A stretch of DNA of 64,000 nt, from the NCBI RefSeq assembly GCF_008369115.1, contig NZ_VOAZ01000001.1:186001-250000 (forward strand), written 5' to 3'. The position numbers and the translations under genes are program-made. The notes under the pieces were generated by a model. That model saw only the letters and a program-made list of their open reading frames with translations. It was not told the DNA's origin and made no database searches. This document shows positions 29,754 to 58,895 of this stretch, in pieces. Numbering within the stretch: position 1 is the first letter of the stretch; each line of letters starts with the position of its first letter. This DNA is from Psychrobacter sp. ANT_WB68 (lineage in GTDB: Bacteria > Pseudomonadota > Gammaproteobacteria > Pseudomonadales > Moraxellaceae).

Positions 29754-30812
29754 CTATTGTACAGGTTCAGAAGCCAGCTCTTCATTGGCTTCGTTGATAT
29801 CTGTTACTTTAGCTTCTTTTTTTGACCCAAGTTTTTCATCACGAATTTTAGCTTCAATTTCTTGTGCAATGGCAGGATTTTCTTTTAAGAATAATACAGA
29901 ATTGGCTTTACCTTGACCAATTTTTTCATCGCCATAGCTATACCAAGAGCCTGCTTTACCCACGGCACCAATCTCAACACCCAAGTCAATCACTTCGGCT
30001 AAGTGGTTGGTACCTTCACCATAAGTGATTTCAAACTCTGCTTGGCGAAACGGCGGTGCCATTTTGTTTTTAATCACTTTAACACGGGTTTGGTTACCGA
30101 TGATTTCATCACCGTTTTTAACCGCGCCGATACGGCGGATATCCATACGTACTGAGGCGTAGAATTTCAGCGCATTACCACCAGTGGTGGTCTCAGGGCT
30201 ACCGAACATCACACCGATTTTCATACGGATTTGGTTAATAAAGACCACCATACAGTTAGAGCGTTTGGCATTACCGGTAATTTTACGTAGCGCTTGGCTC
30301 ATCAGACGTGCTTGCAGACCCATATGAGAGTCACCCATCTCGCCTTCAATCTCTGCACGCGGCGTCAACGCAGCCACGGAATCAATGACAATCATATCAA
30401 CCGCCCCTGAGCGTACCAACATATCGGTAATCTCAAGAGCTTGCTCGCCGTTGTCAGGCTGCGAGAGTAACAGCTCATCAGTGTTCACCCCAAGCTTACG
30501 CGCATAAACAGGATCTAGAGCGTGCTCAGCATCGATAAAGGCGCATACACCGCCTTGCTTTTGGCATTCTGCAATTGCTTGCAAGGTCATGGTGGTTTTA
30601 CCTGAGCTTTCTGGGCCATAAATCTCAACGATACGGCCTTTTGGTAGACCGCCAATACCAAGTGCAATGTCCAGACCCAACGAGCCTGTCGATACCACAT
30701 CCACATCCATAATGGCAGAGTCATCACCTAGATGCATGATGGTATTTTTTCCAAACTGCTTTTCGATTTGACCAAGGGCGGCTTTAAGGGCTTTGGCTTT
30801 ATTCTCGTCCAT
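29754..30812 (-). CDS. recA: Recombinase RecA
   Basis: DNA strand-exchange ATPase at the centre of recombinational repair. The 352-residue sequence has Walker [10 protein letters not shown] (about 65-73), the Walker B/L1 region [20 protein letters not shown]2 [19 protein letters not shown] and an acidic C-terminus. AGGAG precedes the ATG. recX follows. Many relatives in Moraxellaceae lack a classical LexA; I see no standard LexA box upstream, but the promoter was not resolved. Confidence 0.99.
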
Positions 30813-31306
30813 ATAGGACTCCTAGTTATTGATAATGAAATAATAAGTATGCTAGTTATTTAGAACCATTCATCGTAAAGAGCTTGCTTAATGGGGTAGC
30901 TTACGGCTTCAATCGACAGTAAGGAGTGTTTTTAAGCAAGTTTGAAGTGGATGGACATATTAGGTTTAAGGCGGTGATATCGAATATATCATCCTACTAT
31001 ACAGTAAAATTCAATAAGGAGAAAAGCAAAAAAAAGTTCATAAATATTGCTGGTACATAAGCATAATAATGGTCGTGAGCTTATTCAACACGTGCTTTTT
31101 ACATACTTTCTGAGCTATCCGGTTTTATATCATTGTTAATTAGATAAGGTAATTATAACAAAATCCAAGGCCTATATTGAGGTTGCTAAGCGGCTAAACG
31201 ACAGTGAGTGTCGTATGGATTTCTAGTTAAATATTCATAAAATAGGTTTGCGCTAGCTCTCAATTTTGAACTTGATTACAGACTTATTTGTCAATAGATT
31301 TATGAG

Positions 31307-31534
31307 TTGTCCACAATAAATAAAGTGTTTTTTTTAGGGTTTGTGAAACATCCCTAGTAATGAAATTAATATATGAAAATATTAAAAATATATTATTTTA
31401 CTTTCAAATACAACGTAAGTTATTGATTATAAATGTTTTTCAAATTGTACAAAAAATGAACGATTTTATCTAACCCTTTAAGCTATCTAGGGAAAAGCTT
31501 GTCAAGTGGCGACTTATACACAGGGTTATCCACA
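31307..31534 (+). promoter_or_regulatory. Cluster of three DnaA-box-like sites flanking an A/T-rich tract
   Basis: TTGTCCACA at 31307-31315 (one mismatch to TTATCCACA), TTATACACA at 31514-31522 (fits TTWTNCACA) and a perfect TTATCCACA at 31526-31534, all in the same orientation; the last two are 12 bases apart start to start. The tract between the first and second sites is strongly A/T-rich. This resembles the arrangement of a replication origin or of a DnaA-titrating or DnaA-regulated site, but dnaA, dnaN and rpmH are not here. Confidence 0.5.
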
Positions 31535-31797
31535 GCTTATGGGGAGAACTCACGAAGCCCTTACGCTATCAATGTTTGCGCAGATATGAAATATCGTGTG
31601 CAAGCCAAATATAGGGTATTTTGATTTTTGCAAATTTAAATTTAGCAACAGAATTGCCGCATAATGCTTATGTTTCACATATAGTTTGCGGATATAGAGC
31701 AATCAGTTAAACGCTTTGATGTCTTTAAAGTAGTCAATACGACACCCGAAGCCTTATATATCAACAGATAAACTAAGGATGGAGAAAAGCTCAGCCA

Positions 31798-31841
31798 TAA
31801 AAAAGCGGCTAAGTACTTGGTAGGTATCTTAGCCGCTATAT
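31798..31841 (-). terminator. Intrinsic terminator of trmB
   Basis: On the minus strand AGCGGCTAAG pairs with CTTAGCCGCT (10 bp perfect), with further GTA/TAC pairing inside, followed by TTTTTTA. It starts 20 bases past the trmB stop codon. Confidence 0.9.
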
Positions 31842-31860
31842 GGTAATAGCGCTAGCGAGC

Positions 31861-32730
31861 TCAGTCTTTAATATAGATTAAATCCCAAACGCCATGTCCG
31901 CGCTCTAGACCGCGGCGCTCAAATTTAGTCATTGGACGAAAGTCAGGACGGGCAGTGAAGTTACCTGCGCCTGCTTGATTACTAAGCCCTGTAAAACCAT
32001 CTAAAACTTCAACCATCCAAAAGGCATAATGCTCCCAGTCAGTGGCAGTATGGAACCAGCCGCCTTGCTTTAAGCTGCGCGTGACAATTGCCATGCGCTC
32101 AGGGCTGACGAAACGGCGTTTGTAATGACGCTTTTTTTGCCATGGATCAGGAAAGTAAAGCTGGATACGATCGATGTGGTTTTCCGGTAGCTGTTTAAGC
32201 AACTGGATAGCATCACCGTTGATAATTTTCACGTTGGTTAAACCTTGCGTACCTGCCATATAAGCGCATTTTCCGATACCTGGCTCATGGACTTCGACGC
32301 CAACGAAATTACGCGTCGGCTCAGCAGCTGCCATCTCAATAAACGAATCACCCAGTCCAAAACCAATCTCTAAGGTCAGCGGTGCTGCACTGCCATTAGG
32401 ACTGTCAGTGAATAATGCGCGCAAATCATCGATGCCATCAAGATTACCATCACCAAAACTGTTATTGACCAAGTAATGCGCAAACTCTGGCGCAGTCAGT
32501 GCCAGTTCAGCATTTTTATTCATATGCGTACGGCGTTTCATAAAGGTATTGACGATACGAATGTGCTTGTCCGTTGTAGGCTCAGACTGGCTGTTAGAAT
32601 CAGCATCAACGCTAGTCGCAGTGTGAGTTGCTGAGTTTATGGTACTCATGTTATTCGTAGTATTAGGGTTTTGTTCATCAGTAGTATTAGTACCAGTGAT
32701 GTTGTCATTGATATCAGGATGTTGACTCAT
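31861..32730 (-). CDS. trmB: tRNA (guanine46-N7)-methyltransferase TrmB
   Basis: Makes m7G46 in the variable loop of tRNAs using SAM. The core shows [16 protein letters not shown] (SAM motif), [15 protein letters not shown] and the family hallmark [16 protein letters not shown]. At 289 residues it is about 50 longer than E. coli TrmB; the extra residues form an Asn/Thr/Ser-rich N-terminus. Internal ATGs could shorten it (for example [14 protein letters not shown] about 63 residues in), so the start is open. Confidence 0.94.
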
Positions 32731-38642: not shown

Positions 38643-40925
38643 TTACCAGCCGATAGGGTCAATATCCAAGGTCAGCTTCAAATATTTGGTACTTGGCAAG
38701 GCAAGTACAGGCTGCCACCATTGGCTTAATACACGATGTAATTGTTGTCTATCTTTGCCTAACAGCAGCAATTGTACATAGTAGCGACTGTTCTTTTTAC
38801 TCATGGGTGCATCGATAGGACCCAGAACCGCTAGATTATGACCATTTGGTAAAATAGCAATCGCGTCTTTAAGCGCTTGCGTAGTGGTGGCAAGGGTTTT
38901 GCCTTCACAGCGTATGAGGGCAGCATAACTATGCGGTGGCAAGCCCATCATTTTACGTTCTTGCAATAGCTCACGTGCGAATGATAAATAACCATCTTTT
39001 ACCAATTTTAATAACAGCTCATTATCGGGTTGCAAGGTTTGAATGAGTACGCGGCCAGACTTATCCCCGCGCCCAGCACGCCCTGCCACCTGAATCATCA
39101 ATTGTGCAGTATGTTCCGGCGAGCGAAAGTCTGCTGATAAAAAGCCACGATCAGCGTTAGGTAAGCAAACCAAGGTGACATTCGGGAAATGGTGACCTTT
39201 GGCGACCATTTGCGTACCGACTAAGATGGCAGGATTACCTTGATTGATACGCTGATAGATATTTTCCCAACTGTCTTTACGTCTGGTGGTATCGCGATCG
39301 ATTTGGATAATTGGGTATAGCTCTTTACTGGTCTGCGGATTGGCAAAAATCGCATGCAGGTTTTCGCTCAGTCTTGTGGTGCCTATGCCTTTGGCGTCCA
39401 AATTTTGACTGCCACAATCAGGACAAGTCGTCGGAATATAGGCTTGCCAATCACAATGGTGGCATTTCAAATATGAATTGTATTGTGATTGGCTATTATA
39501 ATGAACCGTTAAATGTGCATCACAGCGTGGACAATCTGCCTGCCAACCGCAAGCCTCGCACAATAAAACAGGGGCATAGCCGCGACGATTTAAAAATATT
39601 AATACTTGATCGCCCGCTTCTAGCGTTTGCCGTATCGCACCGATGAGGGCATCGGTCAGACCTGTATCATAGCGAGCGCCGTCGTCCGTCGTCCGTTGAT
39701 GGGTACTTTGCAGTCGCGCATCAATAAGCTGCATGGTTGCAGGTTTCGCATTGCCAGGGCGAGTCAAGAGTTGGCACTCTATCAATTTGCCATCATTGAC
39801 CAGTTTTAGATGCTCAAGCGAAGGGGTTGCAGTACCAAGTACGACAGGGATATTGGCTTGTAGTCCACGGTAAAGCGCGACGTCAGCAGCATGATAGCGC
39901 AAAGTATCTTGCTGCTTATAAGAGCCATCATGCGCTTCATCCACGACAATTAAGCCTAAATCTGCAAAGGGATATAGCACTGCTGAGCGCGTCCCAATGA
40001 TGATTTGAGCATGACCTGTACGGCAATCTTGCCAGCCTTGCAAGCGGTGAGTATTGTTCATACCGGAATGTAGCAAGACAATATGAGCGGCAAAGCGACT
40101 GGCAAAACGCGCACGCGTCTGCGGTGTCAAGCCAATCTCTGGCACCAAAATCAATACCTGCTTGCCCGCTTCTAATACTGCTTGCATGGTTTGCAAATAG
40201 ACTTCGGTCTTGCCACTACCGGTGATACCGTTTAATAAAAATCCCGTATAGCGATTAGCTTCATGAGCAGCAATAATCGCGGTCACGGCGAGTTGTTGCT
40301 CGTCATTGAGGTCAAGGGGCATGGTCGCTACTTTAAAAGGGGCAGGTGCTTGTTTGTTCTGAATATAGCGTTCGATAAGACCTTTTTCTTCTAACCCTCT
40401 TAAAAAACTGCGCTGCATACCTTCTAATAGCAGAATATCTTCACTAGCACCGCGTTCGCCGTGCAGCTTTAGTATATCAAATTGTTGCTTCTGCTTTTTT
40501 GCATTGGCACGAAAGTCGCCGTCGCTCGCATGCGGCAAAACTCGCCAATGGGTAATCAGTAAATCCAGCGGCTTACCTTGACGCACGAGAGTTGGCAACA
40601 TGACCGCTAAGACGTCACCGAGCGGATAGTGATAATAACGTGCCAACCACTGCGCCAGCTTTAGCATACTGGCATCTAAAATTGGCTCAGCATCTAAGCA
40701 TTTATTAATGGGTTTGAGCTTATTGAGGGGTACGCCGCTATCCGCCGCCACAATATGGGCCACGACGATACCGATTAAAGTTTGACGACCAAAGGGTACT
40801 TCGACACGGCTACCGATAGGCGGTATGTGAGGTGAAGCGCCATTTGGCAAGGGGCTCATATTTGCCGGCAAGCTATAGTCAAATACCCGATAAAGGGGCA
40901 CGGGTAGCGCAACTTGTAGCAACAT
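38643..40925 (-). CDS. priA: Primosomal protein N' (replication restart helicase PriA)
   Basis: Superfamily-2 helicase that recognises abandoned forks and reloads the replisome. The 760 residues have the N-terminal DNA-binding domain (VALPVPLYRVFDYSLPA), Walker A GITGSGKTEVYLQ, the DEAH box IVVDEAHDGSYKQQ, GTATPSLEHLKL, a zinc module with eight cysteines (CEACGWQADCPRCDAHL and CHHCDWQAYIPTTCPDCG), and VAGRAGRGDKSGRVLIQT near the C-terminus. Length is normal. It lies at the end of the minus-strand series gmk-rpoZ-spoT-ridA-priA. Confidence 0.97.
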   Translation of the reverse strand: MLLQVALPVPLYRVFDYSLPANMSPLPNGASPHIPPIGSRVEVPFGRQTLIGIVVAHIVAADSGVPLNKLKPINKCLDAEPILDASMLKLAQWLARYYHYPLGDVLAVMLPTLVRQGKPLDLLITHWRVLPHASDGDFRANAKKQKQQFDILKLHGERGASEDILLLEGMQRSFLRGLEEKGLIERYIQNKQAPAPFKVATMPLDLNDEQQLAVTAIIAAHEANRYTGFLLNGITGSGKTEVYLQTMQAVLEAGKQVLILVPEIGLTPQTRARFASRFAAHIVLLHSGMNNTHRLQGWQDCRTGHAQIIIGTRSAVLYPFADLGLIVVDEAHDGSYKQQDTLRYHAADVALYRGLQANIPVVLGTATPSLEHLKLVNDGKLIECQLLTRPGNAKPATMQLIDARLQSTHQRTTDDGARYDTGLTDALIGAIRQTLEAGDQVLIFLNRRGYAPVLLCEACGWQADCPRCDAHLTVHYNSQSQYNSYLKCHHCDWQAYIPTTCPDCGSQNLDAKGIGTTRLSENLHAIFANPQTSKELYPIIQIDRDTTRRKDSWENIYQRINQGNPAILVGTQMVAKGHHFPNVTLVCLPNADRGFLSADFRSPEHTAQLMIQVAGRAGRGDKSGRVLIQTLQPDNELLLKLVKDGYLSFARELLQERKMMGLPPHSYAALIRCEGKTLATTTQALKDAIAILPNGHNLAVLGPIDAPMSKKNSRYYVQLLLLGKDRQQLHRVLSQWWQPVLALPSTKYLKLTLDIDPIGW

Positions 40926-56266: not shown

Positions 56267-56371
56267 CGCCCCATATAGTAAGTTATATACTATTAAATAT
56301 TAGAGTTACATAATACTGATAGCCGCTGTATGACTGATTATATTAAGCGAAGCGTCAGCTAAAGGTGCTAT

Positions 56372-56707
56372 ATGAATATACAAAATGCAGAACATAAAAA
56401 CCAAGATTTGGAACCACGTAGCTTAGTACCTAAAAGCATTACCATTGGCTTGGCTATGTTTGCGCTTGTCTTAAGCTTGGCAGGCTATGGCTTTCGTCTG
56501 ATGGTAGGTGATGATACCGGTGAGGTATTACGTCATGCTGCGGTCATCGTGCCTGCATTTATGCTCGGTATTCCGCTGTTGTTCTGGATAGGTTCACGCA
56601 TATTTAACAAGGTTAAAGGCACGCATATAGAAAGCTGGAATGCCATTAGCTTGGGCTATTTAACCTCTTGTATATCGATGCTTTGGTTAATGGGTACTTA
56701 TAGTTAA
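56372..56707 (+). CDS. Small three-helix membrane protein, unknown
   Basis: A 111-residue protein with about three hydrophobic segments (about 25-46, 58-76, 89-108) and a polar N-terminus (~22 residues). I do not recognise the family. AAAGGTG precedes the ATG at good spacing, which supports real translation. It is 105 bases after rpe and 128 bases before a second small membrane protein on the same strand, so the three may share a transcript. Confidence 0.7.
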   Translation: MNIQNAEHKNQDLEPRSLVPKSITIGLAMFALVLSLAGYGFRLMVGDDTGEVLRHAAVIVPAFMLGIPLLFWIGSRIFNKVKGTHIESWNAISLGYLTSCISMLWLMGTYS

Positions 56708-56835
56708 TGCAATAGTTAATATAAGCGCTTCATCATACTGACCTTTTTATGATTTAAAACCTCGCATTTATTATATTCATTGATCTCTACTCATTAATAA
56801 GTCGCGCTTTACGGCGTGACTGGACACTTGCTAGT

Positions 56836-57147
56836 ATGGCCATATCTTCAAAGAAAATCACCGACATCATCTTTCCAAAAGACCTACCAAACAGTTTATT
56901 TATCGCCCTGATTATTGCCTGTTTGCTGTTAGGGTTGTCTTACCTGCGTCATGGTACAGGGCTGCAGGGTTGGCTGCATGTCTTTGAAAACTGGCTACTT
57001 ATGCTGCTAATCATTCCGACCGCTACTGCTACCGTTGCCTTACCATTTAAATATCGTGACCCTACGCTTGAGCTTAAGCTGACCTATTATCTTGGTATGT
57101 TTGTCGCTTTCCTATTTACTTTGGCAAAATTGCGCTATTGGCGTTAA
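56836..57147 (+). CDS. Small three-helix membrane protein, unknown
   Basis: A 103-residue protein with three hydrophobic segments (about 20-37, 50-70, 82-98) and a short basic end (KLRYWR). Family not recognised; it is unlike the preceding small membrane protein in sequence. No clear ribosome site before the ATG. A short hydrophilic loop, LPFKYRDPTLELKLTY, sits between helices two and three. Confidence 0.65.
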   Translation: MAISSKKITDIIFPKDLPNSLFIALIIACLLLGLSYLRHGTGLQGWLHVFENWLLMLLIIPTATATVALPFKYRDPTLELKLTYYLGMFVAFLFTLAKLRYWR

Positions 57148-57356
57148 TCATCAATTTTTGGCGCATGAGCACCGATAAAGGCACGGATAAAGTGCATTTG
57201 TGCAAAAGACTTATACGTCAGCCCTTGAATTGTAGGCTCAAAGCGTCCATTGTATGACTAAGATAGTTTTGCCCGCATGACTGTAAGACGAGCGCTTTAA
57301 TGAATGGGATAACCGCATTTTTACAGGTGTAAAACGGGATAATAAGGAATAAATGA

Positions 57357-57668
57357 ATGCCATACGATATTGATAATGACATAGAAGTAGATAGTGACAG
57401 TAGCGATCAGTTTGCAGGATTCGCTAAAGAGGCCACTCTTGAGCTCGTAGAAGCAGAGGATGGTAGATTGCTATTACGTGACGCTGAACAAGATGAAGCG
57501 CCATTGATGACCATTGATTTTTCTGAAAAGCTCAAAGAGATACTCGGCAGTGATACCCAAGCGATTGGTCAGCATATGATTCATGCCGCTATTCAAGTAA
57601 TCATGCAAAAGCAAATGAGCCAGTGGCATGCGCATGTCTATGATAAAGAGCCGACGCACTATAGCTAA
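57357..57668 (+). CDS. Small acidic cytoplasmic protein, unknown
   Basis: A 103-residue, strongly acidic protein (the first ~25 residues contain many Asp/Glu: DIDNDIEVDSDSSDQF) without membrane segments. The second half is helical (FSEKLKEILGSDTQAIGQHM; HAAIQVIMQKQMSQWHAHVY). Family not recognised. AAGGA lies nine bases before the ATG. An overlapping ATG four bases upstream is in another frame and gives only six codons. A bidirectional terminator follows. Confidence 0.7.
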   Translation: MPYDIDNDIEVDSDSSDQFAGFAKEATLELVEAEDGRLLLRDAEQDEAPLMTIDFSEKLKEILGSDTQAIGQHMIHAAIQVIMQKQMSQWHAHVYDKEPTHYS

Positions 57669-57761
57669 TTGGTCTGCACATTTTTCGTGGTAAAAATGCG
57701 AGTAATATATCACTAAACCAGTAGCAGTTTAAAACGAATAGATGGTCAAAGAATCGACAAT

Positions 57762-57796
57762 AAAAAAGGGTTTATCATTTGATAAACCCTTTTTTG
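57762..57796. terminator. Bidirectional intrinsic terminator
   Basis: AAAAAGGGTTTATC and GATAAACCCTTTTT form a perfect 14-bp stem around ATTT, with A- and T-runs on both sides. It serves the small acidic gene on the plus strand and rpmG on the minus strand. Confidence 0.95.
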
Positions 57797-57862
57797 TTAT
57801 TCAAATAGCTTAATTTATAGGAAAGTATTTTATAAAAAACACATTCTATAAAATTATAGCAA

Positions 57863-58018
57863 TTATTTGATTTTAGCTTCTTTAAAGATCACGTGCTGGC
57901 GTACTTTTGGATCAAACTTTTTGATTTCCATTTTACCAGGCATAGTGCGCTTGTTTTTGGTAGTGGTATAGTAATACCCAGTACCAGCGGTTGATACTAA
58001 TTTAATTTTATCTCTCAT
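57863..58018 (-). CDS. rpmG: Ribosomal protein bL33
   Basis: Large-subunit ribosomal protein of 51 residues: [20 protein letters not shown], then [20 protein letters not shown] and a short tail ending KEAKIK. It matches the cysteine-free (C-minus, zinc-independent) form of L33. AGGAAAGC precedes the ATG. It lies 155 bases after rpmB, the usual pairing, and ends before the shared terminator. Confidence 0.97.
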
Positions 58019-58173
58019 GATAGCTTTCCTGTAAATGAGCGGTCTTCAAACGATGGGTATGGGTCTAAAGTATTAAGTCACTAACGATGTTGGCTTTATC
58101 GGCTCATCAGTCGTTAGCGTCAGAACAGCCTAAATAACGACAATCATCGCTAAGGTAGGCTGCCAGTTTCTAC

Positions 58174-58410
58174 TTAAACTTTTTGACCTTGTGCGCGTAG
58201 ATCCGCTAACACTTTGTCGATACCAAGTTTGTCAATAGTGCGCATACCTTTGGTAGACACACGTAGACGTACAAAACGATTTTCAGACTCTACCCAAAAA
58301 CGATGGTTATGAAGGTTTGGTAGAAAGCGACGACGGGTTTTGTTGTTTGCGTGCGAAACATTATTACCCACCATAGGGCGCTTTCCAGTCACTTGGCAAA
58401 CTCTAGACAT
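58174..58410 (-). CDS. rpmB: Ribosomal protein bL28
   Basis: Large-subunit ribosomal protein of 78 residues: [37 protein letters not shown] and the C-terminal [20 protein letters not shown] are all canonical. AGGAG precedes the ATG. It is the first gene of the rpmB-rpmG unit. The C-x-x-C zinc pairs of some L28 forms are absent apart from a single cysteine. Confidence 0.98.
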
Positions 58411-58895
58411 GGCGAACTCCTAATCTATGAGGTATGAGGGATTCTCATACCAGTCTGGGCAAGTTGCACGTTTTTGCGGCATGGACACAGCAAGCGGCAG
58501 CTTTGCACCAAACAAAACTATTATGAAGGTTGAGCTGATATTACTGTCATCTAAAGGCAAATAACAGGCAAACCAATTCAGAAAATTTTAAAGCCGACAT
58601 TTATACCATAAAAGTAAAGAATACTCAAATACTTTTATAATAATCACCGCTTTAAACGACAGCTATTATACCCTGAAATGAGAAGGCTATGTGATTGATT
58701 ATTTAATAGCAAAGATTCATTTTTTAGTTGTAAGTTATAACAAAAGTCAGTAAAGTTGCCGTTATATATTTAATACAATCTGTTAATATAACTGTTATTA
58801 TTGTAAGTCTATGTATCATTAATAGGCAAATATGAAGCCATCTAATGATTGTGTATATTTACTAAAATAAATTGCGACCGCTGCGGAGTTCAAAA
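58411..58895. other. Divergent control region between rpmB and the Ig-like lipoprotein gene
   Basis: 485 bases without a gene, A/T-rich. It contains a good leftward promoter for rpmB (58600-58628), which leaves a leader of about 180 bases that could hold ribosomal-protein feedback structure, though none was recognised. The promoter of the lipoprotein gene was not resolved. Confidence 0.55.
58600..58628 (-). promoter_or_regulatory. Candidate promoter for rpmB-rpmG
   Basis: On the minus strand TTGAGT (58628-58623), 17 bases, TATAAA (58605-58600), with TGG just before the -10 acting as a partial extended -10. Confidence 0.55.

Follow-up and report, generated by a model that had tools for sequence, protein, structure and literature searches.

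A putative compact DARS upstream of recA in Psychrobacter and related elements in Gammaproteobacteria

The region between recA and trmB in the window (the whole 64-kb stretch of Psychrobacter DNA analysed here) carries, at positions 31414–31550 of the plus strand, an IHF site, a Fis site and a core of three DnaA boxes that together very probably constitute a DARS (DnaA-reactivating sequence) of the IHF/Fis-assisted (DARS2-like) type. DARS sites set the rate at which ATP-DnaA is restored between replication rounds and have been described from Escherichia coli and its near relatives. Judging from its sequence, the element would be a new compact variant of these sites, and its architecture suggests that it recharges DnaA from the ADP to the ATP form.

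The wide distribution of the element is the more surprising part of the finding. In the searchable literature, outside which most subscription journals lie, no DARS was found in Psychrobacter or Acinetobacter and none at priA or recA; nor did this literature yield the compact arrangement of IHF site, Fis site and core, its spread through nearly the whole class or its common location upstream of priA, and the priority of these findings is uncertain. If the proposed reading holds, the same control would operate through most Gammaproteobacteria, Acinetobacter included, and could be found by sequence alone, and a minimal 140-bp version would be available for biochemistry. Furthermore, it would replace the label of possible origin on such box clusters, and a link between initiation and DNA repair, through placement near priA, recA, uvrB and mutH, would become testable.

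Architecture and setting of the element

The core includes DnaA box III (TTATACACA, 31514–31522) and DnaA box II (TTATCCACA, 31526–31534), both recovered by pattern matching on the plus strand, 12 bp from start to start with 3 nt between them. After a gap of 5 nt, they are followed by a weaker, opposed box I (31540–31548, minus strand; reverse complement TTCTCCCCA, 2 mismatches), which corresponds to the peak of a spacer scan and gives the order III-3-II-5-I(opposed). Consensus scans place an exact IHF consensus (TAANNNNTTGATW, 31416–31428, plus strand) 98 bp before box III, as in other Psychrobacter loci, and an exact Fis consensus (GNNYANNNNNTRNNC, 31447–31461) 67 bp before it, the consensus forms being those given in the accessible text of PMC8682772. 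Two outlying sites precede the element: a DnaA box with one mismatch (TTGTCCACA, 31307–31315, plus strand), found in 44 of 59 Psychrobacter loci, and a box-like site on the minus strand (TGTGAAACA, 31342–31350; reverse complement TGTTTCACA, 1 mismatch), represented by TGTGAAAC in 58 of the 59. An earlier note, made from the letters of the window, had reported two TTWTNCACA sites 12 bases apart, a third with one mismatch and a very A/T-rich stretch beside them. All of these were recovered, the last as a tract at 31354–31445 with 85.9% A+T (73.7% in 31307–31534, versus 57.1% in the window). The same note had all boxes pointing in one direction, which the opposed third core box contradicts.

Single TTWTNCACA boxes are not enriched in the window (7 observed versus 8.4 expected). 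The tandem pair with its 12-bp period occurred in none of 300 Markov-1 sequences of 64 kb and, with at most one mismatch, is found genome-wide only here and in the cluster beside dnaA; a looser tandem-pair pattern adds one site in the genome, with 1 mismatch. The view that the cluster is DnaA-related and deserved a second look was right.

The genes recA (29754–30812; TIGR02012) and trmB (31861–32730; TIGR00091) are both on the minus strand and leave a gap of 1,048 bp (30813–31860). Described previously as the largest of the window, this gap ranks second if only ORFs of at least 150 aa are considered, 56267–58871 being larger. The latter stretch holds several ORFs of 103–111 aa. On the trmB side of the gap, a terminator-like hairpin lies downstream of trmB at 31790–31813 on the minus strand (1 found, 0.6 expected from shuffles). 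A promoter scan of the gap region was uninformative, with 5 sigma-70-like sites versus 5.1 expected from shuffles. An RNA gene was rejected, as 30500–32200 has no Rfam match up to E = 1 (in the window, no Rfam match at gathering level and no tRNA), and so was a plasmid remnant, 31200–31600 having no match in the plasmid collection.

Conservation in Psychrobacter and other Moraxellaceae

Conservation in relatives had been set by the earlier note as a test of its claim, and the claim survives it: a 401-bp query around the boxes matches in 59 of 60 Psychrobacter genomes, where the boxes are kept, the sole genome missed (G014) being 83% complete. The exact pair TTATNCACA-N3-TTATCCACA is present in 59 of 59 loci. 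In the Psychrobacter alignment, columns are highly conserved between about 31291 and 31590 and poorly conserved on either side, with two more conserved blocks nearer recA (30991–31050 and 31141–31170).

Box I displays 2 mismatches in 46 and 1 in 13 of the 59 Psychrobacter loci, and 0–1 mismatch in all 20 loci from other Moraxellaceae genera, in which the core was placed with box I in the score, a procedure that favours it. In the spacer scan, only boxes III and II served to place the core; at spacer 5, a reversed box then shows a mean of 1.78 mismatches in Psychrobacter and 0.50 in the other genera, versus 3.85 and 3.45, respectively, for the next best of the 20 other spacers, none of which fits. 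Box III is more variable outside Psychrobacter, with at least 2 mismatches in 7 of these 20 loci.

The IHF consensus is exact in 41 of the 59 Psychrobacter loci (at 98 bp in 40, at 99 bp in one) and inexact in 18, and the best match within 71–130 bp of box III has at most one mismatch in every locus. The Fis consensus, missing in two of the 59 loci, is exact in the other 57 at 67 bp and is also found at 66–67 bp in 16 of the 20 loci of other genera, where the inner bases have changed and the consensus persists (as in GGTTATTTTTTAACC and GATCAAATTTTGATC). At the Fis site, the conserved block (31441–31470) forms a palindrome (AATTG...CAATT in other genera) that extends beyond the Fis consensus and beyond what Fis needs, so that another dimeric protein may bind there.

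Profile R1, which draws on 39 Psychrobacter loci including 6 second copies (see below), matches at E 0.001 in 143 of 149 Moraxellaceae genomes and in 16 of 16 genera (102 of 108 genomes outside Psychrobacter).

Partner genes and chromosomal position

The genome encodes the proteins on which such an element would depend: Fis (NF001659, 103.3 bits versus a cut-off of 99), IHF alpha (NF001401), IHF beta (NF001222) and Hda (TIGR03420) each exceed the cut-off of the NCBIfam model named, their matches being below the cut-offs of some sister models.

The element is an intergenic, conserved cis site away from oriC, as is expected of a DARS. In 10 Psychrobacter genomes, 18.2–27.9% of the chromosome separates the recA-side copy from dnaA; the distance is 18.5–31.2% for 4 sites in 3 genomes of a second genus (g10), which we guess to be Moraxella, and 21.8–34.6% in 5 genomes of g15, identified as Acinetobacter by gene neighbours. 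These distances are approximate, since several genomes have more than one contig, and genomes of one genus are not independent in this respect because they share gene order. For E. coli, the corresponding distances, likewise approximate, are 20.6% for DARS2, 32.9% for DARS1 and 10.1% for datA.

Spread in Gammaproteobacteria

Of 185 gammaproteobacterial genomes, 145 contain the core pattern with at most 3 mismatches, and none contains its reversed control. The core midpoint falls outside ORFs of at least 90 aa in 19 of 20 class loci, two ORF predictions touching an end of a core, and the core adjoins priA in 7 of those 20. Among 75 genomes that have both a core among the matches listed and a priA match, a core precedes the beginning of the TIGR00595 match by 0–1.5 kb in at least 30, belonging to many families, and these priA-linked cores all have the same direction as priA (30/30). 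In the genome studied here, priA (38643–40925) lies about 9 kb from the element and has no DnaA-box pair of its own.

The upstream sites were sought in 60 class loci, namely 25 of the 30 priA-linked cores and 35 others with at most 2 mismatches among the matches listed, chosen roughly in list order and irrespective of their flanks. The values of 98 and 67 bp had been derived from Psychrobacter before any class locus, and 14 of the 60 loci had been seen before the ranges of 94–101 and 63–68 bp were set. An IHF consensus with at most one mismatch lies at 94–101 bp in 42 loci and is absent in 18; an exact Fis consensus lies at 63–68 bp in 25 and is absent in 35. The background expectation per locus is 0.008 for IHF and 0.003 for Fis.

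Profile R2 was made from the 42 IHF-bearing loci, which come from other gammaproteobacterial families and include neither Moraxellaceae nor E. coli; as only these loci were used, the IHF site is built into the profile. At E 0.001, it matches in 339 of 369 gammaproteobacterial genomes, part of the matches having been inspected, and in 172 of the 184 genomes outside the core-pattern search. The E. coli priA region is not among the R2 matches listed.

A broader proposal can be built on these data, and we advance it tentatively, its chances as a whole being somewhat below even. The compact DARS of about 140 bp (IHF at 98 bp, Fis at 66 bp, core III-3-II-5-I) would be ancestral and near-universal in Gammaproteobacteria, usually with 1–3 copies per genome, and DARS1 and DARS2 would be its rearranged descendants. 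By a raw tally of neighbours, it recurs upstream of genes for replication restart and repair (in many families priA, in Psychrobacter recA, in E. coli uvrB and mutH), a placement that would couple initiator recharging to the state of repair of the forks.

Comparison with DARS1 and DARS2

In the accessible part of PMC5742627, DARS1 and DARS2 share a core in which box I is opposed to boxes II and III, with common spacing. The element displays this core, box I being weak in Psychrobacter. The position of the DARS2 core follows from the deletion primers in the accessible part of PMC4585315; a triad at 1952–1986 of the E. coli DARS2 stretch was rejected as the core, as these primers and R2 give 1636–1670.

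R2 gives 47.5 bits to the window element (31414–31550, model positions 3–139 of 142), 32.3 to DARS1 and 25.3 to DARS2, and all three alignments run from model position 3–4 to 139 of 142; datA and the oriC of the genome studied here, which are not DARS, reach 16.5 and 15.8 bits. Sequence relatedness to DARS1 and DARS2 is therefore found, with a small margin over core-only matches for DARS2: since R2 reading the core palindrome backwards attains up to 23.8 bits, the DARS2 margin is thin, and the core carries most of its score.

DARS2, in the mutH promoter region, has the same core as the element (I-5 nt-II-3 nt-III, box I opposed), an R2 match that, like that of the element, spans positions 3 to 139 and includes the IHF part, and a similar relative distance from oriC. 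It differs by its gene neighbours, by the lack of 12 model positions in the Fis part of its R2 alignment and by the spacing of its upstream sites. In a consensus scan, made independently of the published IBS/FBS coordinates, the nearest IHF-like sites lie 71 and 87 bp before box III of DARS2 and the only exact Fis consensus lies 125 bp before it, versus 98 and 67 bp in the element. The element, which carries both predicted sites as exact consensus at fixed distance, is filed as a variant because of this unlike spacing.

DARS1, in the uvrB promoter region, has the same core spacing, and its boxes (TAATACACA-TGG-TTATCCACA) resemble those of the element (TTATACACA-GGG-TTATCCACA) nearly letter for letter; however, every IHF-like match in the 420 bp upstream of it has at least 2 mismatches, whereas that of the element is exact. 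According to the accessible sections of PMC5742627 and PMC8682772, DARS1 is active without IHF and Fis (PMC5742627), DARS2 activity requires both (PMC8682772) and the functional region of DARS2 covers about 400 bp or more (PMC5742627). As for the range of these sites, the available text of PMC4245941 describes the DARS2 core as conserved among gamma-proteobacteria related to E. coli, and that of PMC8682772 compares seven E. coli-proximal species.

Proposed mechanism

The analysis shows the sites, how they are spaced and conserved, and the partner genes; DnaA binding, ADP release and an effect on initiation would follow from this architecture. ADP-DnaA produced by Hda-dependent inactivation would bind as neighbours on boxes II and III and in head-to-head orientation on box I. 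About 90 bp from there, IHF would bend the A/T-rich DNA, and a Fis dimer, sitting between the IHF site and the core, would shape the complex. The opposed DnaA pair would then release ADP, and the apo-DnaA would leave and pick up ATP. The recharged ATP-DnaA would thereby make oriC, which lies at a distance of about 0.6 Mb, more able to initiate.

Titration or inactivation of DnaA

The earlier note had offered three readings, a DnaA-titration site, a DnaA-controlled recA promoter or a displaced origin, and as a set they are partly supported. The first fares best and is taken here in a wider form, a datA-like site at which boxes and IHF promote DnaA-ATP hydrolysis or which soaks up DnaA after replication. 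DnaA boxes and an IHF site do indeed compose datA in the accessible text of PMC10950094, as they do in the element, and any strong box cluster titrates DnaA somewhat. However, box order and spacing are those of DARS cores and differ from those of datA, in which boxes 2, 3 and 7 surround one IHF site, and R2 separates the two (16.5 versus 47.5 bits). Furthermore, a Fis site belongs to DARS2 (PMC8682772) and is absent from minimal datA as described (PMC10950094), as far as the accessible parts of these papers go. Finally, the element lies at 18–28% of the chromosome from dnaA in the 10 Psychrobacter genomes, versus the 10.1% of E. coli datA, which is nearer oriC and has a biochemical effect opposite to that of DARS. 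A datA-like role is thus unlikely. The titration reading was correct in relating the site to DnaA, and the fixed opposed-box core with its IHF and Fis sites points to a more specific role, DnaA reactivation.

Relation to recA

Control of recA through the element by DnaA and IHF is a still more doubtful reading, which draws on the neighbourhood of the element in Psychrobacter. Of 51 named Psychrobacter stretches, which end at 8 kb and limit neighbour tallies to that span, 42 have both recA and trmB no more than 1.5 kb from the core, the others having trmB only (4), recA only (4) or neither (1). Two g10 loci are also near recA (L153 with recA and trmB, L158 with recA). Nevertheless, the III-to-I direction points away from recA, and the element lies 600–700 bp upstream of the recA start, beyond a putative extended -10 of this gene (TGTTATAAT, 31152–31160, minus strand; motif in 52 of 59 Psychrobacter loci), a boundary marker outside the element from which the recA leader would exceed 300 nt. 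The stretch between the element and this promoter is less conserved.

Moreover, the gene setting changes from one lineage to another. All 17 named Acinetobacter stretches, one of which is a plasmid, have the element flanked by a transglycosylase gene and ttcA. Six Psychrobacter genomes carry a second DARS-like copy, located in 6 of 6 loci between a PfkB-type kinase gene and a phosphoglycerate-mutase-like gene; five of them also have the recA copy, and the second copy is the only one found in G014. The idea of a DnaA-controlled recA promoter is weakened accordingly, and the element is probably not a recA operator.

Several side observations concern these settings. The Fis consensus is missing in two of the six second copies. 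One Acinetobacter cumulans strain has slt-element-ttcA on its chromosome and also on a plasmid, the latter holding a chromosomal piece. Upstream of the putative recA promoter, an inverted repeat (ACGACAGTGAGTGTCGT, 31198–31214), found as ACGACA-N3-7-TGTCGT in 20 of 59 Psychrobacter loci, is possibly a damage-response operator.

Relation to the replication origin

The combination of DnaA boxes, an IHF site and an A/T-rich tract resembles oriC, yet a chromosomal origin, main or auxiliary, at the element is highly improbable, since dnaA lies on another contig (C3:73599) with a cluster of TTATCCACA boxes spaced by 12 bp just upstream, no GC-skew switch occurs at the element and R2 gives this dnaA-side region 15.8 bits versus 47.5. 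The true oriC is likely to be the one beside dnaA, which shares the 12-bp spacing with the element and differs from it by at least 5 same-strand boxes and the lack of an opposed box at +5. The suggestion of an origin in an unusual position is therefore not supported. Across the window, GC skew is positive or about zero nearly throughout. The skew check proposed by the earlier note was made by sampling 20 stretches of 20 kb in one relative, the single-contig genome G004, and it locates the sign change at dnaA: skew is positive in 10 of 10 stretches from dnaA to 1.55 Mb and negative in 9 of 10 from 1.70 to 3.12 Mb, and the element of this genome falls within the negative arm, at 2.709 Mb and 600 kb from dnaA.
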